The notes under the pieces: model-generated | Databases searched by the model: none | What the model was told of the DNA's origin: nothing | The model's input: only the letters and a program-made list of their open reading frames with translations | Origin: Stenotrophomonas maltophilia | GTDB taxonomy: Bacteria > Pseudomonadota > Gammaproteobacteria > Xanthomonadales > Xanthomonadaceae | DNA length: 64,000 bases | Direction: 5' to 3' | NCBI RefSeq assembly: GCF_002799245.1 | Contig: NZ_NEQV01000002.1 | Span: 868,001-932,000, forward strand | Shown: positions 28,311 through 39,467 of the stretch, one piece after another | Numbering within the stretch: the stretch's first letter is position 1 | Layout: each line of letters begins with the position of its first letter | Position numbers and translations under genes: made by a program

Positions 28311-28345
28311 TCGGCGTCACTATTTGCCGTGATTGAGACCTTGAT

Positions 28346-28375
28346 TTGAGCCTGCACGCATTCTTCACATAGGAT
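28346..28375 (+). promoter_or_regulatory. Putative promoter of the flotillin/ATPase/TelA cassette
   Basis: TTGAGC and TAGGAT separated by 18 bp in a short, relatively AT-rich stretch after trpF. The first gene of the cassette starts 104 bp after the -10 box. No operator-like dyad was recognised. Confidence 0.45.
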
Positions 28376-28478
28376 GGTCCCTAGCGCGCCTGCCATGAGG
28401 GCCGGCGCCGGGATCGACGGGGCGGGCATTGCGCGCCCTGAACGGGCGGCCGCCGCCCACAGCCCAGGAAGGCAAGCG

Positions 28479-29153
28479 ATGCAGGAGTTTCTCACCGTCG
28501 TGCTCGGTTACCCGACTCTGCCGTACAGCATTCTGCTGATGGTGTCGGTGATGTATTGGGCGGTTGCGGCGTTCGGCCTGGTCGATGACGGCTTCGGCGA
28601 TCTCGGCGCCGATGGCGCACTCGAGGCCGGGACCGATCTCAGTGGCCTGTCGGCCGTGCTGGCGCGCTGGGGCCTGGGCGGCGTCCCGATCATGGTGGTG
28701 GTCACATTGCTGGGCCTGTTCGGCTGGTTCATCACCTATTTCATCCATCTGTTCGTACTGCTGCCGCTGCCGGACCTGCTGCGCTGGGGGCTGGGCACGC
28801 TCGTGGCGGTGCTGGCACCGCTGCCTGCAGTACCGCTCACCGCGTTGATCCTGCGCCCGGTCCGGCGCTTCCTGCTGCGCCTGCGGCCGGTGCCTCAGGC
28901 ATCGCTGCTGGGCCGGATCGGCGTGGTCGCATCGCCGAAGGTGGACGCACGCAGCGGCCATGCCAATGTCGATGACGGCGGCGCCGGGCTGGTGCTGCAG
29001 GTCCGCAGCGACATCGAACTGCAGCGTGGCGAGCGCATCGTGCTGGTCGAGCACATGGCCGAACAGCACTATTACCGGGTGGTCCGCGCCGATGCGGTCG
29101 CCCTCGATTTCCAGGACAACCTGCTTCCGGGCAACAAGGAGAATCATCAATGA
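28479..29153 (+). CDS. YqiJ/NfeD-like inner-membrane OB-fold protein
   Basis: A 224-aa membrane protein. Hydrophobic segments are near residues 10-32, 65-90 and 100-122; the C-terminal part (about 140-205, LLGRIGVVASPKVD ... GERIVLVEH) looks like the OB-fold of YqiJ/NfeD proteins. Such proteins accompany flotillins (yqiJ-yqiK in E. coli, nfeD-floT in Bacillus) and are thought to help build membrane microdomains. ATG at 28479 has AGGAAGG upstream. Its last codons overlap the flotillin gene (ATGA). Assignment comes from topology, motif and context; an exact family hit would need a profile search. Confidence 0.8.
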   Translation: MQEFLTVVLGYPTLPYSILLMVSVMYWAVAAFGLVDDGFGDLGADGALEAGTDLSGLSAVLARWGLGGVPIMVVVTLLGLFGWFITYFIHLFVLLPLPDLLRWGLGTLVAVLAPLPAVPLTALILRPVRRFLLRLRPVPQASLLGRIGVVASPKVDARSGHANVDDGGAGLVLQVRSDIELQRGERIVLVEHMAEQHYYRVVRADAVALDFQDNLLPGNKENHQ

Positions 29154-31168
29154 CGTTGGCGTCCCTCTTACCGATCCTGGCCGTCGCCGGCGGCCTGCTC
29201 GTCCTGTTGCTGGGCGTGGCCGGCCTGTTCAAGGCCTTCTATCGCAAGGTCGACCAGGGTGTGGCCCTGATCGTCAACGACATGAGCTCCACGCCCAAGG
29301 TGCATTTCACCGGTGCACTGATCATCCCGGTGCTGTACCGCGCCGAGCTGATGCGGATCAGCCTGATCACCCTGCAGATCGACCGCCGCGGCAAGGAAGG
29401 CCTGATCTGCCGCGACAACATGCGTGCCGACATCGCCGTTGCCTTCTATCTGCGGGTGAACGAGACCCAGGCCGACGTGCTGCGCGTGGCCAAGGCCATC
29501 GGTGCTGATCGTGCGTCGGACAAGCATGCCGTCGATGAGCTGTTCAACGCCAAGTTCTCCGAAGCGCTGAAGACGGTCGGCAAGAAATTCGACTTCACCG
29601 AACTGTTCGAGAAGCGCCAGGAATTCCGCGACGAGATCATCGCGGTGATCGGCAACGACCTCAACGGCTACGTGCTGGAAGACGTGGCGATCGACTACCT
29701 GGAACAGACCCCGAAGTCGCTGCTGGACCAGTTCAACATTCTCGATGCGCAGGGCATCCGCAAGATCACCGAGCTGACCGCCGCGCAGAACGTGGTGACC
29801 AACGAGCTGGAGCAGAACGAGAAGCTCGCCATCACCAAGAAGAACGTGGAAGCCCGTGAAGCGCTGCTGGCACTGGAGCGCCAGCAGGCCGAAGCCGAAG
29901 CACGCCAGAAGCGCGAGATCGAGACCATCCGCGCGCGCGAGGAAGCCGAGACTGCCAAGGTGCAGGAAGAACAGCGCCAGCTGTCCGAGAATGCCCGCAT
30001 CGAGGCGCAGCAGCTGATCGAGATCCGCGACCAGAACCGCCTGCGCGAAGTGGAAGTGGCCGAGCAGAACCGCCAGCGTGCGGTGGCCATCGAAGCCGAG
30101 CGCGTGGAGCGCGCGCGCCAGCTGGAGCAGGTCACCACCGACCGTGAAGTGCAGCTGCAGGGCGTGGAGCGCGACAAGGTGGTCGAGCAGGGCAAGATGG
30201 ACGTGGCCAACATCACCCGCGAACGCATCTCCATCGACAAGACCGTGGCGCAGGAAGAGGAGCGCATCAAGGAAGTGCGCGAGGTCTCCGAGGCCGACCG
30301 CCAGAAGCAGGTGCTGATCCTGGAGGCCGAGGCCAAGGCGCAGGAATCGCTGGTGCGCGAAGTGAAGGAAGCGCAGGCGCGTGAAACCGCCTCCAAGCAT
30401 CGTGCGGTGGAACTGACCACGCTGGCCCAGGCCGAGCACGAAGCGGCTGGCAAGCAGGCCGAAGCCAAGCGCCTGTTGGCCGATGCCCTGCGTGCCGAAC
30501 AGGCCGCTCCTGGCCTGGCCGAGGCGCAGGTGCGTGAAGCCTCGGCACTGGCCATCGAGAAGGTCGGCATCGCCGAGGCCCGCGTGATCGAAGCCAAGGC
30601 CGAAGCCAGCCTGAAGCAGGGCAGCAACGAAGCCCGGGTGCTGGCCGAGACCCTGCAGGCGCAGGCACAGGGTGAGGAAAAGATGGGCCTGGCCCGTGCC
30701 ACTGCCACCGAGTCGCTGGGCAACGCCGAAGCCGGCGTGGTGCAGAAGAAGCTGCTGGCCGAGGCTGAGGGCCTGGTGCGCAAGTTCGAAGCCATCGCCT
30801 CGCTGAGCGACCAGGCACGTGGCCACGAAGAGTTCCGCATGATGCTGGACAACAGCCTGAAGCAGGCGCTGGCCTCGATCGAAGCCGGCAAGGAAGTCTC
30901 GCGCGAGAACGCCAATGTCATCGCCAGCGCGCTGCGCAACGCCGATATCGACCTGGTCGGTGGCGACGGCGGCATGTTCGAGAACCTGGTCAAGGCCGTG
31001 TCGCTGGGCAAGTCGATCGAAGGCTTCGCCGGCAAGAGCCCGATCGTGCAGGAGCTGATGCAGCGCTACCTGGGCGTGGCCGTGGCCGAACCGGCACCGC
31101 GCCAGATCGCCGAGGATGCCGAAGCGGTGCCGACCGTGTCGGCCACCGTGGTCGACAGCGCCCGTTGA
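29150..31168 (+). CDS. Flotillin-family (YqiK-like) membrane scaffold
   Basis: A 672-aa SPFH/flotillin protein. One N-terminal membrane helix (residues 5-28) is followed by the SPFH domain (DQGVALIVNDMSSTPKVHF, then RRGKEGLICRDNMRADIAVAFYLRVNE). A very long Glu/Ala/Gln/Arg-rich coiled coil runs from about residue 220 to 550. A C-terminal region has MMLDNSLKQALASIEAG and GGDGGMFENLVKAVSLG. YqiK-type flotillins oligomerise into membrane microdomains that gather partner proteins. Coupled to the YqiJ-like gene by a 4-bp overlap; the ATPase gene follows after 85 bp. Family call firm, cellular role here inferred. Confidence 0.92.
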   Translation: MTLASLLPILAVAGGLLVLLLGVAGLFKAFYRKVDQGVALIVNDMSSTPKVHFTGALIIPVLYRAELMRISLITLQIDRRGKEGLICRDNMRADIAVAFYLRVNETQADVLRVAKAIGADRASDKHAVDELFNAKFSEALKTVGKKFDFTELFEKRQEFRDEIIAVIGNDLNGYVLEDVAIDYLEQTPKSLLDQFNILDAQGIRKITELTAAQNVVTNELEQNEKLAITKKNVEAREALLALERQQAEAEARQKREIETIRAREEAETAKVQEEQRQLSENARIEAQQLIEIRDQNRLREVEVAEQNRQRAVAIEAERVERARQLEQVTTDREVQLQGVERDKVVEQGKMDVANITRERISIDKTVAQEEERIKEVREVSEADRQKQVLILEAEAKAQESLVREVKEAQARETASKHRAVELTTLAQAEHEAAGKQAEAKRLLADALRAEQAAPGLAEAQVREASALAIEKVGIAEARVIEAKAEASLKQGSNEARVLAETLQAQAQGEEKMGLARATATESLGNAEAGVVQKKLLAEAEGLVRKFEAIASLSDQARGHEEFRMMLDNSLKQALASIEAGKEVSRENANVIASALRNADIDLVGGDGGMFENLVKAVSLGKSIEGFAGKSPIVQELMQRYLGVAVAEPAPRQIAEDAEAVPTVSATVVDSAR

Positions 31169-31253
31169 TGCATCGGGCGGTGGCCGCTGTGGCCATCGCC
31201 CGCCCGCGCCGGCCGCAACCGCGGCCGTCCGCCCGTGAGCCGGAAGCCTGCTG

Positions 31254-34200
31254 ATGTCTGAAACCCATCCGTCCGCCGAACCCATCGCATCGGAGGTCGG
31301 CAGCAACACCGTCGACCAGGCCGTCGCCCAGGGGGGCGCCTACGAAGTCCTGCGCCGCCGCCTGGCCGAGCAAGGCCAGCGCCTGCAGGGCCTGGCCGAG
31401 ACGCTCAACCGCCAGCGCCTGGCCGAGTTCGGCGACAGCCGCCTGGAGGTGGTCGGGCGTTTCCGCATCCGCAGCGAGAACAACTGCGTTGGCCGTGACA
31501 TCGTGCAGGTCGGCCCGGACCGACTGCTGTTCGGCTACAACGTGTTCATCGGGCTGAAGACCCACACCCGCATCGAGGATGTGTTCGGCCTGTACCGGCT
31601 GGTGCAGGGCAACGACGGCTACGACGTCGCTGCGCTGGAGCTGAAGGGCAGCTTCCTCGACCAGCCCGGCTTCGTGCACGATTTCAACGAGCTGTATGCC
31701 TACTACAAGCACGCACGCCTGCTGCAGCTGATCGTGGTGGGCGACAAGCTGCTGGCCTCGTTCCAGATCGGCGAGCGCAGCAGCGACGTGCGTGTGTTCC
31801 GCTGGGCGCTGGCGCGCGATGGCGAACTGACCTATCTGGATGCGCGCGGTGAGCGCGATATCGCACTGCCGCCGCCGTTCGACTTCGAATGGACCAAGGC
31901 GACCCGCGACCTGGCGGTCAATGGCCGCCATTCGCACCTGAACATCCTCGACACCCTGTTCGTGGAGACCACCGGCGGCGACCTCACCATCAAGGTCGAG
32001 AACAACACCGAGACCGGGCAGGGCATCTACAGCGAACCGGTCGAGGACAGCACGCAGTCGCTGGACGACGCCCAGTTCGAATTCGCCCGGGTCGGTTCGC
32101 TGGTGCTGCTGAAGGTGCTGCCGTACCGCGAGACGGAGTGGCGCGGCCTGATCTACAACACGCTGACCGGCGGCATCGTGCGCAACGATGCCATCGTGCA
32201 GGCCTGCGTGCAGCTGCCCGAAGACCACGGCGTGATCTTCCCGGGTGGCTATTACCTGCAGGGCGGCGAGCACAAGGCATTCGACGCCTCGATGGCCGGC
32301 ATGCAGTTCAAGCGCAGCATCCGCTCGCCGAACGGCGAGGACGTGCTGTACATCTTCTACGAGCGCGAAGGCGGACGCTCGGCGCTGTTCGTCTACAACA
32401 CCATCCAGCGCGTGCTGCAGAACCCGGTGTTCGGCCATGGCTACGCCCTGATGCAGGACGGGCGCATGGTGCTGTTCCACGCCGAAGGCAGCGAACCGAC
32501 CCGCATCCATCCGATGCAGGTCTGGCAGACCCCGTTCAGCAGTGACGAGTTTGCTGCCAGCCGACCGCCCGGCAACACCTTCATGGGCCGCATCGGCAAC
32601 GCCGAACTGGTGCGCGGCATCTCCAACCTGTTCAACCTGGCACGCGAGATCGACGGCCAGGACGTGTCGGTACAGCGTTACCAGCGCCTGGTGGCCGATA
32701 CCCGGCGCCTGTTCGATGCACACCACTGGCTGGGCGACGAGGCCTGCGACGGTGCCGAGGCGCTGCTGCGGCAGATCAGCGCCACCGGCGAATCGGTGCT
32801 GGACGAATACGAGAAGGTGCAGTCGATCCGCCAGCAGTCGACGCAGGCGATGGTCGAGGCAGAGGCCGCGCACAAGGCGCTGCTGGGCCGGCTGCAACCG
32901 CAGAACTGGAGCGAGGTGCAGACCTTCGTCGAGGGCCTCAATGCGATCACCGCATTGCGTGGCCGGCTGCTGACCATCCGCGAGCTGCGCTACATCGATA
33001 CCGCGCGCATCGAGACGATGACGGCCGAACTGGTGCAGGCGCAGGACCAGGTCGGTGCCGCCACAGGCGAGTTCCTCGCCGGTGACGCCGCGCTGGTGCC
33101 GCTGACCACGCGCCTGCAGGCGCTGGATGAAGCTGCCCAGCAGGCACAGAGTGCCCGCCAGCTGGACGAGCAGCTGGAGGGACTGCGTGGGATGGCGGCC
33201 GACCTGGACATGCTGTCCGAGCTGATGGCCGGCCTGAAGGTGGACGATGCCACTGCCCGCACCCGCGTGGTCGAGTCGATCTCGGTGCTGTACGGCCGCC
33301 TCAACCAGGCCCGCGCGCGTGCTGAACAGCGCCGCAGGTCGCTCGGTTCGGCTGAGGCCGTGGCCCAGTTCGCCGCACAGTTCGCACTGTTCTCGCAGTC
33401 GATCACCAGTGCGCTGGCCCTGTCCACCGACCCGGAACGCGCCGACGAGCAGCTGTCGCGCCTGCTGGTGCAGCTGGAGGAACTGGAGAGCCAGTTCGGC
33501 GAACACGAGCAGTTCCTCGGCGACATCCTGAGCAAGCGCGAAGAGCTGGTTGAAGCCTTCGAAACGCACAAGCAGGCCTTGCTGGATGACCGCCAGCGCA
33601 AGGCGCGCTCGGTCCTGGATGCGGCCAACCGCATCCTCGACGGCCTGGCCAAGCGCACCGAGCGCTTCGCCACCGCCGACGAGCTCAACGCATTCTTCGC
33701 CGGCGATCCGCTGATCCTCAAGCTGCGTGAACTGGCCGAGCGCCTGCGCACGCTGCACGACAACGTCAAGGCCGACGACATCGAGGCGCGGTTGAAGGGC
33801 GTGCGTGACCAGGCGGTGCGCCAGCTGCGTGACCGCAGTGATCTGTACGAAGCCGGCGGCAACGTGGTGCGGCTGGGGCCGCGCCACCGCTTCAGCGTCA
33901 ACACCCAGGCACTGGACCTGACCCTGTTGCCGCGTGGCGATGCGCTGGCCATCCACCTGACCGGCACCGACTTCCTGGAGACCCTGCACGATCCGGAGCT
34001 GGATGCGCTGAAGCCGTTCTGGCCGGTCACGCTGGACTCTGAATCACCCACGCTGTATCGCGGCGAATACCTGGCCGGCAGCCTGCTGATGGCCGCGCAG
34101 GAGGGGCGCGACGGCCTCGACCTGGCCATGCTGCAGCAGGACGTTGCCAACCCCGATGCGCTGGACCAGCGCGTGCGTGCGTTCGCCGCACCGCGCTATC

Positions 34201-36644
34201 GCGAAGGCTACGAGCGCGGCATCCATGACCATGATGCCGCGCTGATCCTGCGTGCGTTGCTGCCCTTGCAGCAGGCCGCTGGCAGCCTGCGCCATGTGCC
34301 GCGGGTACGTGCGCTGGCGCTGCTGTTCTGGGCAGGCGAGCAGCGGCGCGAGGCGGTGGCGCAATGGCCGGCGCGGCAGGTGGGCGCCGAAGCGCTGGCA
34401 CGCCTGCTGGGGTCCGACGAAGGGCGGCTGGCGTTGCGTGCGGAAATGGCCGAGGCGCTGCTGGCGTATGCGCAGTCCCACGCGCTGCCGTTCGATGCCG
34501 ATGCCGCGGAAGCCGCAGCCGCCTATCTGGGCGAAGAACTGGCGGCGGGCGATCCGGTGTTCAGCAGCAGCCGCCATGCGGTGGCACTGCTGGAGGCATT
34601 GGCGCAGCAGCTGGAACAGGCCGGGCAGCGCGAGGCGGTCGAACGCGCCCTGCAGCGCAGCCAGGACCCGCTGGCCGCGCGCTGGGCGCTGGCCGGGCAG
34701 TGGCTGCGTGCGCTGGCGCGGATGCCGGCGCATGCCACGCATGCCGGTTATGTCGATGAAGCTGCGGCGTTGCTGCTGGTGCAGCGGCAGCTGCGCAGCC
34801 GCGCCAGCGACGCTGCGCTGCAGTCGGAGGTCAGTGGCCTGCTGGGCGAGCACGCGCGCATCAGCAATGGCACGCTGGTGGTGTCGCTGGATGACTTCCT
34901 GGCACGCCTGAAGCAGCACCTGCGCCACTTCGTGCCGGCGTTCCATGCCTACCAGGCGCTGCGCCAGGGCATCATCAGCCGCGAGCGCGAGACCCTGCGG
35001 CTTTCCGAGTTCAAGGCGCGGCCGCTGTCCTCGTTCGTGCGCAACAAGCTGATCAACGATGTCTACCTGGGCGTGATCGGTGACAACCTTGCCAAGCAGA
35101 TGGGCACGGTCGGCGAGAACAAGCGCAGCGACCTGATGGGCCTGCTGATGATGATTTCGCCCCCGGGTTACGGCAAAACCACGCTGATGGAATACGTGGC
35201 GCACCGCCTGGGCCTGGTCTTCATGAAGATCAACGGCCCGGCGCTGGGCCATGAGGTGCGCTCGCTGGACCCGGCCCAGGCACCGGACGCGACCTCGCGG
35301 CAGGAGCTGGAAAAGCTCAACCTGGCGCTGGAGATGGGCAACAACACCATGCTGTATGTGGACGACATCCAGCACACCCATCCCGAGTTCCTGCAGAAGT
35401 TCATCTCGCTGTGCGATGGCACGCGCCGTATCGAGGGTGTGTGGCGCGGTCGTACCCGCACCTATGACATGCGCGGCAAGAAGTTCTGCGTGGTGATGGC
35501 CGGCAACCCGTACACCGAGTCCGGCGAGGTGTTCAAGATTCCGGACATGCTGGCCAACCGTGCCGACATCTACAACCTCGGTGATGTGCTCGGTGGCATG
35601 GAGGCAGCCTTCATCCTCAGCTACATCGAGAACAGCCTGACCTCCAATCCGGTGCTGGCGCCGCTGGCCACGCGCGAGATGGCTGACCTGTACGTGCTGG
35701 TCGACCGCGCAATGGGCAAGGAGGTCTCGACCAACGGCCTCAGCCACGCCTACAGCAGCGCGGAGATCAATGAGATCACCGCCACCCTGCAGCGCATGCT
35801 GCGCGTGCGCGACGTGGTCTACCGGGTCAACCAGCAGTACATCGCCAGTGCCGCACAGGACGACCGCTACCGCACCGAGCCGCCGTTCCGCCTGCAGGGC
35901 AGCTACCGCAACATGAACAAGCTGGCCGAGAAGATCTCGCCGGTGATGAATGAGGATGAGCTGCAGCAATTGATCTCTGACCACTATCTGGGCGAGGCAC
36001 AGCTGCTGACCACCGGCGCCGAAGAGAACCTGTTGAAGCTGGCCGAACTGCGCGGCGTGCTGGATGACACGCAGGCGCAGCGCTGGGCACAGATCAAGCG
36101 TGACTTCCTGCGCAACAAGGCCATGGGGGCCGACGACAGCGATGTTGGCGGGCGCGTGGTTGCGCAGTTGGCCGATATCGCCACCGCGCTGCAGCTGCCC
36201 CCGCCGGCGCCGGAAGCGATCGCCGTTGCCGACCCTGCACCGTGGCCGGCGTTGCTGGAGGCCCTGCATCGCCTTTCTGAAACGCGTCCTGCTGCCACCG
36301 CACCGGTGCCGGTTGCGGCCGCCGCCAGTGTGCCGTCCGCGGTCCTGGCCGAAGACCTGCAGGCGGGCCTGGCGCCGCTGGTGGAACTGCTGGCGGCATC
36401 GCAGGCGCAGCAGATGCAGGTGTCGCAGACCCTGGCCGCGTTCGCTGGCTGGGCGCGGCAGCAGGTCGAGCGTGGCGCGCCCAGCGCTGTGGTGGCGCAG
36501 CGCGCGCGCGTGCGCCGCGCCGCGACGCCGGAGGAGCGGGCGTTGGATGAGGCCTTGATGCGCCACTTCTACGGCGAGTCATTGCCGCCGGAAGACAGCG
36601 ACGGCATCCCGGCATCCACGCCGAAGCCGCCGCCGCTGCCGTGA
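31254..36644 (+). CDS. Giant AAA+ ATPase of the DUF3686 'DNA repair ATPase' type
   Basis: A 1,796-aa protein. The N-terminal 500 residues are strand-rich (RFRIRSENNCVGRDIVQVGPD onward), matching the DUF3686 region. About 500-900 is mostly coiled coil, with a helical middle domain to about 1200. An AAA+ domain follows: Walker A PPGYGKTT at about residue 1303, Walker B MLYVDDIQ at about 1366 and sensor-1 VVMAGNPY at about 1415. A Pro/Ala-rich linker leads to a short conserved tail, RHFYGESLPPEDSDG. No nuclease or membrane helix is seen. The 'DNA repair' label of the family is an annotation tradition, not a proven activity. Downstream gene overlaps by GTGA. Confidence 0.82.
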   Translation: MSETHPSAEPIASEVGSNTVDQAVAQGGAYEVLRRRLAEQGQRLQGLAETLNRQRLAEFGDSRLEVVGRFRIRSENNCVGRDIVQVGPDRLLFGYNVFIGLKTHTRIEDVFGLYRLVQGNDGYDVAALELKGSFLDQPGFVHDFNELYAYYKHARLLQLIVVGDKLLASFQIGERSSDVRVFRWALARDGELTYLDARGERDIALPPPFDFEWTKATRDLAVNGRHSHLNILDTLFVETTGGDLTIKVENNTETGQGIYSEPVEDSTQSLDDAQFEFARVGSLVLLKVLPYRETEWRGLIYNTLTGGIVRNDAIVQACVQLPEDHGVIFPGGYYLQGGEHKAFDASMAGMQFKRSIRSPNGEDVLYIFYEREGGRSALFVYNTIQRVLQNPVFGHGYALMQDGRMVLFHAEGSEPTRIHPMQVWQTPFSSDEFAASRPPGNTFMGRIGNAELVRGISNLFNLAREIDGQDVSVQRYQRLVADTRRLFDAHHWLGDEACDGAEALLRQISATGESVLDEYEKVQSIRQQSTQAMVEAEAAHKALLGRLQPQNWSEVQTFVEGLNAITALRGRLLTIRELRYIDTARIETMTAELVQAQDQVGAATGEFLAGDAALVPLTTRLQALDEAAQQAQSARQLDEQLEGLRGMAADLDMLSELMAGLKVDDATARTRVVESISVLYGRLNQARARAEQRRRSLGSAEAVAQFAAQFALFSQSITSALALSTDPERADEQLSRLLVQLEELESQFGEHEQFLGDILSKREELVEAFETHKQALLDDRQRKARSVLDAANRILDGLAKRTERFATADELNAFFAGDPLILKLRELAERLRTLHDNVKADDIEARLKGVRDQAVRQLRDRSDLYEAGGNVVRLGPRHRFSVNTQALDLTLLPRGDALAIHLTGTDFLETLHDPELDALKPFWPVTLDSESPTLYRGEYLAGSLLMAAQEGRDGLDLAMLQQDVANPDALDQRVRAFAAPRYREGYERGIHDHDAALILRALLPLQQAAGSLRHVPRVRALALLFWAGEQRREAVAQWPARQVGAEALARLLGSDEGRLALRAEMAEALLAYAQSHALPFDADAAEAAAAYLGEELAAGDPVFSSSRHAVALLEALAQQLEQAGQREAVERALQRSQDPLAARWALAGQWLRALARMPAHATHAGYVDEAAALLLVQRQLRSRASDAALQSEVSGLLGEHARISNGTLVVSLDDFLARLKQHLRHFVPAFHAYQALRQGIISRERETLRLSEFKARPLSSFVRNKLINDVYLGVIGDNLAKQMGTVGENKRSDLMGLLMMISPPGYGKTTLMEYVAHRLGLVFMKINGPALGHEVRSLDPAQAPDATSRQELEKLNLALEMGNNTMLYVDDIQHTHPEFLQKFISLCDGTRRIEGVWRGRTRTYDMRGKKFCVVMAGNPYTESGEVFKIPDMLANRADIYNLGDVLGGMEAAFILSYIENSLTSNPVLAPLATREMADLYVLVDRAMGKEVSTNGLSHAYSSAEINEITATLQRMLRVRDVVYRVNQQYIASAAQDDRYRTEPPFRLQGSYRNMNKLAEKISPVMNEDELQQLISDHYLGEAQLLTTGAEENLLKLAELRGVLDDTQAQRWAQIKRDFLRNKAMGADDSDVGGRVVAQLADIATALQLPPPAPEAIAVADPAPWPALLEALHRLSETRPAATAPVPVAAAASVPSAVLAEDLQAGLAPLVELLAASQAQQMQVSQTLAAFAGWARQQVERGAPSAVVAQRARVRRAATPEERALDEALMRHFYGESLPPEDSDGIPASTPKPPPLP

Positions 36645-37348
36645 CCCCGCAGGCACCGCTGCCGTCGCCGATGCTGCCGGGCACGGCCGATGTCGCCGTG
36701 CTGGCCGACTACGGTGCGCCACTGCTGGAGGCGCTGGCGCAGCGCGAGACAACGTTGCCGGCGGGTGCGGGCGAGGGCCTGGTGGCCGCGCTGGCACGCA
36801 TCGCGCTGGCCCTGCAGGCCGGCAACCCGGCGCAGATCCGGCAGCAGGAGGGCTGGTGGGGCCGATTGCTGGGGCGCGATGTCGCTCGCGAGGCGGAAGC
36901 GCGCGCGCTGCAGTCGCAGCTGGGCGTACTGGCCCTGCAGGCGCGTGAGCAGGCCCAGCACCTGCAGCAGCACCTGCAGCGGCGGACCATGGCCATCATC
37001 GAACATTCAGAGGCGGCCGCGGCACTGGAGGGCTGGGCCGAACTGGCGGCGTCGCGGCTGACGCCGCTGGATGTCGCCGGCCAGGCCGCGCTGTCGCAAC
37101 GGCTGGATCACCTTCGCCGGCTGGCGGCACTGCGGCGCCTGGAAGCCAGCCAATGGCAGCTGCTGCAGGACCAGGACAACATACTGCTGCAACGGTTCGC
37201 GCGCATCCATGACGTCCTGCTGCCGGCCTGGCGGCAGGCGGCACTGGTGGACCAGGCCGCTGCGGGCGCTGCGTTGGCCGGCAAGGCGGCCACGCTGCAC
37301 GCACAGATCGATGACGAGGTGGCTGCGGCTCAGGCTAGACTGCCTTGA
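36641..37348 (+). CDS. Uncharacterised helical protein between ATPase and telA
   Basis: A 235-aa protein with no motif I recognise. It is almost wholly alpha-helical and rich in Ala, Leu, Gln and Arg. A short segment QQEGWWGRLLGRDV (about residues 66-79) may be amphipathic, and coiled-coil stretches run from about 80 to 115 and 150 to 235. No signal peptide or membrane helix. GTG start overlaps the ATPase stop (GTGA); an ATG ten codons later (36671) is possible. Position between the ATPase and telA, with tight coupling, suggests a dedicated partner or adaptor of one of them. Confidence 0.75.
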   Translation: MTPQAPLPSPMLPGTADVAVLADYGAPLLEALAQRETTLPAGAGEGLVAALARIALALQAGNPAQIRQQEGWWGRLLGRDVAREAEARALQSQLGVLALQAREQAQHLQQHLQRRTMAIIEHSEAAAALEGWAELAASRLTPLDVAGQAALSQRLDHLRRLAALRRLEASQWQLLQDQDNILLQRFARIHDVLLPAWRQAALVDQAAAGAALAGKAATLHAQIDDEVAAAQARLP

Positions 37349-37392
37349 GCCGGCCGCCGCTGCCGCTTACCCAACTGCAAGGAGACTGCCCG

Positions 37393-38502
37393 ATGACCCA
37401 GGACAGCCAGACCCCCGGAGCCCTCGTGCCCGGCACGACCACCGCCGCTCCTCTCGATGAAGGTGCATTGCAGGCGCTGGGACTGGTCCGCGAGGATCTG
37501 CCGCGCATCGCCGAGATCCGCCTGGAGCTGGAAGATCTGCGCCCGGGCAACCTGCAGGTCTTCGGTCGCGAAGCGGCCACGCGCACCGCAGCGTTCTCCA
37601 GCCAGCTGCTGGACCAGGTGCGCAATCGTGACCTGGATGCCAGTGGCGAGAAGCTGGGCGAAGTGGTGCGCATCGCGCGCGGCCTGAAGCTGGATGGCTT
37701 CGCCCAGCGATCGAAGGTGCCGGTGATCGGCGGCCTGATCGACCGCCTGCGCGTATCCAAGGGCGAGCTGGTGCAGAAGTTCAGCGACACCAATGCGCAG
37801 ATCGAGCAGTTGCTTGGCGATGTCGGTGTGCAGCAGGCGCTGATGGGCAAGCGCGTGGGCGAGTTCGACCGCATGCACGACATCGTCCGCGAAGAACGCC
37901 ATGCGCTCGGCCTGTATGCGGCAGCGGGCAAGCAGCGGCTGGCCGAACTGCAGGCCGAGCAGCGGGCCGGGCAGGGCAGCGAGGATCCCCAGCAGCGCAT
38001 CCGCCAGGGCGAGATCGACAACGCGATCCGGTTGATCGAGAAGCGCGTGTCCGACCTGCAGCTGATGCAGCACGCCGCCGACCAGTCGCTGCCGATGATC
38101 CGCCTGATCCAGGCCAATGCGCTGCAGCTGATCGAGAAGTTCAACACCGTCCGCGACATCACCATTCCGTCGTGGAAGCGCCAGTTCGCCATCCAGCTCT
38201 CGCTGGGCGAACAGAAGGCGGCGGTCGAACTGTCCACGGCCATCGACGATGCCACCAACGAGTTGATGCGCCGCAATGCCGACCTGCTGCGCCAGGCCTC
38301 GGTGGATACCGCACGCAGCAACCAGCGCGGAGTGATCGACGTGGCCACGCTGCGCCATGTGCACGACCAGCTGATCGCCACGGTGGAAGAAGTGCGCAGC
38401 ATCCATCGTGAGGGGATGCAGCAGCGGCAACAGGCGGAAGTGGAACTGTCGCGCCTGCGCGAGGACCTGCAGCAGCGGTTGGCTGCCCCCACCGCCCCCT
38501 GA
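37393..38502 (+). CDS. TelA/KlaA 'toxic anion resistance' family protein
   Basis: A 369-aa, mainly helical cytoplasmic protein of the TelA family. Recognisable features are KVPVIGGLIDRLRVSKGELVQKFSDTNAQI near residues 112-140, a long coiled coil, the segment MIRLIQANALQLIEKFNTVRDITIPSWKRQF near 236-266, and the C-terminal VIDVATLRHVHDQLIATVEEV. TelA proteins were named from plasmid tellurite resistance, but their biochemistry is unsettled and they occur with Ter-type stress genes. ATG at 37393 is preceded by AAGGAG with 8-nt spacing; a TTG at 37345 overlapping the upstream stop is the alternative. Last gene of the cassette, ended by a palindromic terminator. Confidence 0.9.
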   Translation: MTQDSQTPGALVPGTTTAAPLDEGALQALGLVREDLPRIAEIRLELEDLRPGNLQVFGREAATRTAAFSSQLLDQVRNRDLDASGEKLGEVVRIARGLKLDGFAQRSKVPVIGGLIDRLRVSKGELVQKFSDTNAQIEQLLGDVGVQQALMGKRVGEFDRMHDIVREERHALGLYAAAGKQRLAELQAEQRAGQGSEDPQQRIRQGEIDNAIRLIEKRVSDLQLMQHAADQSLPMIRLIQANALQLIEKFNTVRDITIPSWKRQFAIQLSLGEQKAAVELSTAIDDATNELMRRNADLLRQASVDTARSNQRGVIDVATLRHVHDQLIATVEEVRSIHREGMQQRQQAEVELSRLREDLQQRLAAPTAP

Positions 38503-38507
38503 AGTAG

Positions 38508-38574
38508 AAAAAGGGGACGGAGGGGATTAAGTCGCATACGCCACATACGACTTAATCCCCTCCGTCCCCTTTCT
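38508..38574. repeat. 27-bp-stem palindrome, bidirectional terminator
   Basis: Arms of 27 nt starting AAAAAGGGGACGGAGGGG, with a 13-nt unpaired loop containing CATACGCCACATA. The arms match those of 18409-18474, apart from one base near the outer end. It lies between the convergent telA and LysR-type genes and can terminate both. Confidence 0.88.
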
Positions 38575-38579
38575 CGTTG

Positions 38580-39467
38580 TCAACGGAGTTGCTGGCCCAG
38601 CCAGTCTGCCAGCGCATCCACGCGCGCATCGACCAGACCATCTGGTCGCGCCAGCACCCAGAAGCCACCGGTGGCGGCAAACCCCCATGGCGCGACCAAC
38701 CGGCCCGCAGCCAGGTCCTCGGCCACCAGCGGCTCGGGCGCGATCGCCGGGCCCAGCCCGGCCACCGCGGCTTCCAGCAGGTAATACAGGTGCTCGAAGG
38801 CGGTGCCCAGCTGCAGCTTCGAGGTGTCCAGATCGTGCGCCTGCGCCCACGCCGGCCACGCCTGTGGCCGTGAGCTGGTGTGCAGCAGCGTCTCCTGCAG
38901 CAGTGCCGAGGGCGGTACATGCCGCAGGCGCTGCGCTGCCGGATGCGATGGTGCCACCACCACGCCGACCCGTTCCGGCGCCAGCTCACGCACCTGCCAG
39001 CCCCGGGGCCATGGCCCCTGCGCCAACAGCAGTACCGCATCCAGTGCTGCCTGCGCTTCGGTGAAGCTGCCATCCAGCGCCGACCACTGCAGGCGCACGC
39101 CGGGCAGGGCGGCCTGCAGAGCAGGCAGGCGCGGGATCATCCAGCGCGCCAGCACGCTGCCGCTGCAACCCAGCACCAGTGCCGGGGCCGCCGCCGGCCG
39201 CCGCAGTTCGCGCACGCAGTCTTCGATGCCGCTGAAGGCCTCGCTGCACGCTGCCTGCAGGCGCGTGCCGGCAGCGGTCAGGCGCAGGCCGCGACCGGCA
39301 CGCTGGAACAGCGCCAGGCCGAGATGGTCTTCCAGCAGCTTCAGCTGTCGGCTGACCGCGCCGTGGGTGACATGCAGGTCCTGTGCGGCGCGGCCAACCC
39401 CGCCGAGGCGGGCGGTGGCCTCGAACGCGCGCAGCGCGTTGAGCGGTGGCAGCAGGGAACGGCTCAT
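38580..39467 (-). CDS. LysR-type regulator divergent from trpB (TrpI-like)
   Basis: A 295-aa transcription factor. The N-terminal winged helix reads LNALRAFEATARLGGVGRAAQDLHVTHGAVSRQLKLLE (residues 9-46, taken in parts: recognition helix around HGAVSRQLK), followed by an effector-binding domain of two Rossmann-like halves. It resembles the GcvA/TrpI/AmpR branch. In Pseudomonas, TrpI is divergent from trpBA and activates it with indoleglycerol phosphate; the same layout here suggests the same job. The gene symbol is withheld because this is inferred from position and subfamily only. Confidence 0.85.
   Translation of the reverse strand: MSRSLLPPLNALRAFEATARLGGVGRAAQDLHVTHGAVSRQLKLLEDHLGLALFQRAGRGLRLTAAGTRLQAACSEAFSGIEDCVRELRRPAAAPALVLGCSGSVLARWMIPRLPALQAALPGVRLQWSALDGSFTEAQAALDAVLLLAQGPWPRGWQVRELAPERVGVVVAPSHPAAQRLRHVPPSALLQETLLHTSSRPQAWPAWAQAHDLDTSKLQLGTAFEHLYYLLEAAVAGLGPAIAPEPLVAEDLAAGRLVAPWGFAATGGFWVLARPDGLVDARVDALADWLGQQLR

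Follow-up and report, generated by a model that had tools for sequence, protein, structure and literature searches.

PspA is regarded as central to the phage-shock response. In the available sections of their paper, Ravi et al. (2024; PMC11237479) described an operon that joins the pspA gene to genes for a CesT/Tir (DUF2170) protein, YqiJ, a flotillin and an AAA+ ATPase, and noted abbreviated forms that lack pspA. We analysed a related five-gene cassette of Stenotrophomonas maltophilia, located at positions 28479-38502 on the plus strand of a 64,000-nucleotide stretch of contig NZ_NEQV01000002.1 (hereafter, the window), which encodes a YqiJ-like protein, a YqiK-type flotillin, a giant DUF3686 AAA+ ATPase, a 235-residue protein (H235) and a TelA-family protein. 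The two operons have the core of YqiJ, flotillin and DUF3686 ATPase in common; they differ in that TelA is mentioned nowhere in the same sections of Ravi et al. (2024; PMC11237479). The initial annotation of this DNA held that no function had been described for the combination, a statement too broad for the core, which is already in print and for which bac operon mutants exist. A paper joining all five genes was not found in the open-access literature.

Of the relatives of the core, the best studied is apparently bacABCDEF, the bac operon of Pseudomonas aeruginosa, which encodes a DUF2170 protein (BacA), PspA (BacB), a short NfeD protein and the flotillin PaFlo3, together with two further genes (PMC2587700, PMC10948618, PMC13086221). 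The accessible parts of these reports describe a single transcript, PspA raised by osmotic shock, and biofilm, rhamnolipid and virulence defects in bacA or bacB mutants (PMC2587700, PMC10948618); deletion of the flotillin gene cost only about 20% of the biofilm (PMC13086221). PA3728, beside the bac operon, is listed as an ATPase in the available text of another study (PMC8190622), and from gene order we infer that bacE encodes the DUF3686 ATPase and bacF a PLD protein. Other Pseudomonas loci have the order DUF2170-PspA-YqiJ-flotillin-DUF3686, and a DUF2170 protein from one of the operons examined matched the solved DUF2170 structure 8q8o (E 1.6e-9). Like the cassette, the bac operon holds genes for a short NfeD protein and a flotillin in one operon; unlike the cassette, it includes pspA, a DUF2170 gene and a proposed sigma54 site. 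With the one pattern used, a sigma54 site was matched in 0/54 cassette upstream regions, and no DUF2170/CesT gene was found in 24 kb of the window (the search was confined to this part of the genome).

The two genes that close the cassette were identified as a klaA-klaB pair. On sequence grounds, H235 (36641..37348, plus strand, 235 aa, GTG start) is a homologue of KlaA, and the TelA protein (37393..38502, plus strand, 369 aa, ATG at 37393) is a homologue of KlaB. No Pfam or NCBIfam family matched H235 over its cut-off, and the KlaA homology gives an identity to a protein that had been annotated as an unknown adaptor. A profile of the H235 family scored 68-87 bits against KlaA of 5/5 plasmids and 11-28 bits against KlaB, the best of 402 shuffled or reversed control sequences reaching 6.7 bits; the match to KlaA of R702 spanned profile positions 9-221 of 229. 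A single BLASTP pairing with a S. maltophilia plasmid protein gave 26% identity over 201 columns (E 1e-11), a PHROG annotated as tellurite resistance was matched at E 7e-4, and tblastn of H235 against plasmids gave no plasmid match. The AlphaFold2 model of H235 was all helical, with a predicted local distance difference test score (pLDDT) of 90. TelA, correctly assigned to its family at the outset (PF05816, 238 bits), shares 46-49% identity with the KlaB-type proteins found on IncP plasmids, with 793 plasmid records matching in all, and the gene preceding klaB on IncP-type plasmids is klaA. KlaA and KlaB were reported to be homologous by profiles in the available part of a 2017 paper (PMC5696584), and plasmid KlaA scored over the Pfam TelA cut-off in 3/3 cases tested. 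The link between H235 and TelA themselves, for profiles built from separate sets, was weaker (hhalign probability 63-85%). H235 was also considered as a relative of PspA or DUF2170 and was rejected as such for want of any profile similarity.

In the kilA operon (klaABC) of IncP plasmids, inspected here in R702, klaA and klaB are likewise adjacent, in the same order and orientation, and both are homologous to the cassette genes; the cassette differs in having no klaC and in joining the pair to a chromosomal flotillin/ATPase operon. A profile built from four plasmid proteins, either KlaC or encoded at the KlaC position, found no match at E <= 1 among the neighbourhood open reading frames, and KlaC of R702 is TrbC-pilin-like. 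Pairs of klaA and klaB were present on five of the six plasmids inspected (two IncP, a Stenotrophomonas plasmid, IncHI2 and an Aeromonas plasmid), the sixth, from Acinetobacter, carrying TelA without KlaA. The 21 chromosomal KlaB proteins formed one clade (100/100) with a long stem from six plasmid proteins, a topology that is no proof of the direction of transfer, which would have run from plasmid to chromosome. Lysobacter xinjiangensis carries a second KlaA-like gene, upstream of that for DUF2170 (L117:3515-4342, 113.7 bits), and further copies lie elsewhere in two genomes of the source genus (L262:5523-6602, 88.6 bits; L263:5447-6277, 79.5 bits), possibly in integrated plasmids. Seven TelA proteins of the family distant from DUF3686 belong to another TelA subfamily (for example L258:5283-6497 and L260:7371-8927), found in a few Lysobacteraceae and missed by the KlaB-type profile; the four such loci that were fetched had no KlaA-like open reading frame and no KlaB-type profile match, and two that were rescored gave no support.

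The history of the pair was followed in 258 genomes of Lysobacteraceae, 70 of which had DUF3686 and 43 TelA over the cut-off. TelA lay 5.5-6.2 kb from DUF3686 on the same contig in 36 of these 43. Among the 36 genomes, PspA scored 25-77 bits in 26, at 3.4-6.5 kb from DUF3686, and was undetected in 10, whereas among the 34 DUF3686 genomes without the pair it scored 129-185 bits in 30, at 3.7-4.6 kb from DUF3686; the other four had no PspA near the ATPase, their sole match, of 38-48 bits, lying elsewhere. A Mann-Whitney p value for this series takes no account of relatedness among the genomes and is given no weight here. With profiles trained on the operons, scores in the fetched family loci fell, where TelA was present, from 260-324 to 108-242 bits for PspA and from 279-302 to 234-273 bits for DUF2170. 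Mean identity to two Pseudomonas orthologues (seven loci without TelA vs 18 with it) fell from 63 to 32% for PspA, from 60 to 49% for DUF2170 and from 71 to 65% for the ATPase. TelA changed once and PspA presence twice on a tree built from the ATPases of 49 loci (43 in the family), a quick tree whose chosen outgroup was not one clade and from which L046 was left out for its broken frame. Given these tree changes and the series of scores, klaAB apparently joined the operon once, in Lysobacteraceae, with PspA changing alongside, and PspA and DUF2170 would have been lost later on the branch leading to the source genus.

PspA was detected in 0/91 genomes of that genus, the source genome included (0/1), at E <= 0.001, in a search that found it in 9/14 control genomes. 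In the sections available, Ravi et al. (2024; PMC11237479) suggested that the abbreviated forms may use PspA encoded elsewhere, an idea that finds no support in this genus. That the machine is kept with no detectable PspA suggests that it is separable from PspA, and KlaA and KlaB are named here as candidate stand-ins.

The cassette behaves as one unit in the genus. DUF3686 was found in 56 and TelA over the cut-off in 55 of the 91 genomes, and we fetched every one of the 56 positive loci; of the 35 negatives we fetched 32, the remaining three having no trpB match. All five genes were present in 55 of the 56 positive loci, the last lying on a 5,540-bp contig and being cut by its end, and 0/32 cassette-negative loci matched any of the five (E 1e-5). 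In 54/54 positive loci where both trp genes could be seen, the unit sat between them. In the 29 negatives with both trpF and the LysR gene in view, these were 20-310 bp apart in 22 and separated by 551-2,959 bp of other DNA in seven. The reading in the initial annotation of one unit inserted in the trp neighbourhood was borne out, the site being trpF-LysR/trpB.

Nucleotide distances in the cassette closely followed those in its flanks (r 0.983, slope 0.96; 49 of the 56 positives, the other seven lacking one or more genes at the required length). On a flank tree of 85 loci, the state changed 15 times (24.8 with shuffled labels), and well-supported branches forced 13 of the changes; we read most changes as losses of the whole unit, on a tree that counts gains and losses alike. 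Judging from these comparisons, the unit is inherited vertically in the genus and occurs either complete or not at all, with the proviso that, because of linkage between flanks and cassette, exchange of the whole region would give the same distance and tree signal. The correlation of distances disfavours repeated acquisition of a mobile unit at the trp site. In L057 (G430, 85% complete), the flotillin frame is broken (L057:13215-15906), through decay or sequencing error. Elsewhere in the family, the trp genes were in the fetched stretch in 3/3 loci of genus g235 and in none of the other 34 loci (33 distinct) tabulated.

Beyond these groups, DUF3686 was found in 10 of 397 genomes of a phylum-wide sample and in 0/14 controls. 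A second scan, of named records, covered the best 80 of 555 confirmed DUF3686 loci, 60 of which had enough flank, the other 20 being set aside. DUF2170, PspA, YqiJ and flotillin accompanied the ATPase in 36 of the 60, TelA without PspA in three and both in one. Among the matches listed, the four loci with TelA (L117, L118, L120 and L126) all belong to Lysobacteraceae. In a search for YqiJ itself, its gene adjoined the flotillin gene in 112 of the loci scanned.

We propose, with confidence somewhat short of even, that the cassette is an envelope-maintenance operon of the phage-shock (PSP)/BAC type in which KlaA and KlaB took over from PspA and DUF2170 as client. The YqiK-type flotillin and the short NfeD protein YqiJ would form an inner-membrane scaffold on which the DUF3686 AAA+ ATPase docks, and the ATPase would remodel or disassemble membrane-associated coiled-coil proteins. 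In many bacteria PspA, chaperoned by DUF2170, would fill the client role. In Lysobacteraceae, klaA and klaB of the kind found in plasmid kilA operons would have entered the operon as a pair, apparently once; PspA would then have diverged sharply, and PspA, DUF2170 and the PLD gene would have been lost from the operon on the branch of the genus. KlaA and KlaB are helical proteins of one superfamily, the first short and the second long, and may now be the clients of the ATPase, the envelope role being kept without PspA.

The scaffold and an AAA+ machine acting on membrane coiled-coil clients are ideas of Ravi et al. (2024; PMC11237479), as given in the sections available, and the flotillin/NfeD membrane platform of the initial annotation is a reasonable reading in that light; the change of client is the new part. 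The available text on Listeria describes lmo1967 (TelA) as LiaR-regulated together with a PspC-type set, with a mutant 4-fold more nisin-sensitive (PMC12791056), and we count this presence of TelA in an envelope-stress regulon as support for an envelope role. The lmo1966-lmo1967 (xpaC-telA) locus resembles the cassette in placing a TelA-family protein in the envelope-stress LiaR regulon and differs in its XpaC-like partner, a flotillin or DUF3686 partner going unmentioned in that text (PMC12791056). A more specific form of the proposal, which we hold only tentatively, is that a PSP-type flotillin/AAA+ machine took in KlaA and KlaB from a plasmid, and that the pair worked at first alongside PspA and later displaced it non-homologously. 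If this is true, KlaB would serve a Vps4-like ATPase as a membrane client much as PspA does, and the plasmid tellurite/KilA proteins would gain a mechanism. The tellurite and kil functions of plasmid KlaA and TelA have been known for decades and, to our knowledge, have no agreed mechanism; the cassette gives both proteins a concrete candidate cellular partner.

Several observations weigh against a takeover by KlaA and KlaB. On the ATPase tree, the gain of TelA falls on the same single branch as the divergence of PspA, which leaves roughly one event and no independent replicate, and the flotillin diverged on that branch too (from 80 to 63% identity). PspA was kept in 18 of the 33 TelA loci on that tree, which points to addition before loss with no clean swap and rules out strict mutual exclusion of TelA and PspA. 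PspA was also undetected in members of the genus without the cassette. Neither TelA nor H235 had detectable profile similarity to PspA, and fold comparison gave no PDB match at E <= 0.001, only weak matches to helical proteins, the TelA model being poor (pLDDT 70). Finally, YqiJ and flotillin alone accompanied the ATPase in 20 of the 60 scanned loci (profile-based), and three family loci (L062, L068 and L069) had the core with neither PspA nor KlaAB adjoining, so the ATPase may need neither client.

The frequency of this bare core, as well as the single event on the ATPase tree, would suit klaAB being a mere hitch-hiker in an operon whose core works alone, PspA having decayed through another lineage-specific change. 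We consider this quite unlikely, since KlaA was present in 41/41 loci (39 distinct) with KlaB-type TelA and both genes were kept in 55/55 uncut genus loci across the flank tree with its 15 unit gains or losses. The ratio of nonsynonymous to synonymous substitution (dN/dS) of TelA, 0.04-0.15, also argues against it; in the four pairwise comparisons made, all five genes stayed below 0.41, with klaA highest (0.27-0.40) and the flotillin at 0.01-0.08. KlaA and KlaB might instead retain the plasmid-conflict or toxic-oxyanion role of kilA (fertility inhibition, FiwB, and tellurite resistance), acting through the flotillin/ATPase platform on the envelope complexes of incoming elements. The pairs on five of six plasmids are consistent with such a role, as is the requirement of FiwB for KlaA, KlaB and KlaC given in the available text of PMC5696584. 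However, klaC was not found in the neighbourhood open reading frames, and among the sampled proteins the chromosomal clade has a single origin, with vertical inheritance in the genus, which makes a retained plasmid role unlikely.

A mobile anti-phage defence cassette is very improbable; phage defence was one of the roles that the initial annotation had offered. In its favour are the patchy presence (56/91) and, in the accessible part of one study, the inclusion of PA3728-PA3732 in a set of 17 genes that were raised in every phage-infected sample of P. aeruginosa (PMC12041424), an induction that also fits general membrane stress. However, no convincing PADLOC match was obtained (the ATPase gave two weak partial matches, E 0.0035 and 0.0045), the vertical signal (r 0.983) and the one fixed site in the genus argue against mobility, and our searches of viral contigs and phage records found no relative of the ATPase. 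Of the earlier interpretation, the one inserted unit and the platform are supported, and the undescribed combination, the unknown adaptor and phage defence are not supported.

We are highly confident in the anatomy of the operon and the homology of its parts as described. The five co-directional genes and their junctions (-4, +85, -4 and +44 bp) agreed exactly with the earlier observation, of which the promoter and terminator did not hold up as stated (see below). The YqiJ-like short NfeD protein (28479..29153, plus strand, 224 aa) has several hydrophobic 19-residue stretches, and the YqiK-type flotillin/SPFH protein (29150..31168, plus strand, 672 aa) has a single, N-terminal one. Neither had any Pfam match, and their identities come from homologues and gene layout, with a weak match of the flotillin to NCBIfam FloT (E 0.0011, far below the FloT cut-off). 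The ATPase (31254..36644, plus strand, 1,796 aa) contains DUF3686 (residues 44-491, 645 bits), DUF7902 (613-696, 86 bits) and one AAA+ module (about 1298-1425; AAA_5, 31 bits), with a Walker A motif (ISPPGYGKTT) and a Walker B-like motif (MLYxDD) that are invariant across nine aligned homologues. Hydropathy gave no membrane-like hydrophobic stretch in the ATPase, H235 or TelA.

The trpF-yqiJ intergenic region (28311..28478, plus strand) had no promoter site at the scan threshold. Where a promoter-like box had been annotated, we found only a weak pair, TTGAGC-N18-TAGGAT, which recurs in close relatives among 20 aligned sequences and is only suggestive of a promoter upstream of yqiJ. The palindrome downstream of the operon (38509..38573, no strand assigned) had been taken for its terminator. 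It scored as terminator-like on the minus strand only, the plus strand having just three T after the hairpin, and an exact inverted repeat of at least 8 bases occurred in only 16 of 50 TelA-LysR gaps of relatives. Its arm, GGGGACGGAGGGGATTAAGTCG, was found 111 times in the 4.7-Mb genome (55 forward and 56 reverse, up to one mismatch; reversed control 0), mostly as close inverted pairs, and we therefore regard the hairpin as a copy of a dispersed REP-like palindromic element. This rules out a dedicated terminator, though the copy possibly also serves as one.

The cassette lies between trpF and the LysR gene/trpB, and Pfam identified the flanks as PRA isomerase (trpF), LysR, a PALP/PLP enzyme (trpB) and TrpA. 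The LysR-family gene (38580..39467, minus strand; LysR_substrate and HTH_1) is outside the unit and is also present at the site in cassette-negative loci. In four loci (L170:6249-8843, L166:6248-8857, L173 and L174), the trpF-LysR site holds a gene for a 618-aa protein with NlpC/P60 and peptidoglycan-binding domains, which in L194 is present together with the cassette. This gene is accompanied by one that is lipoprotein-like by eye, and partial copies were seen in L167, L169 and L182. The C-terminus of the 618-aa protein may resemble the XVIPCD tag of antibacterial effectors of the X-T4SS (a type IV secretion system).

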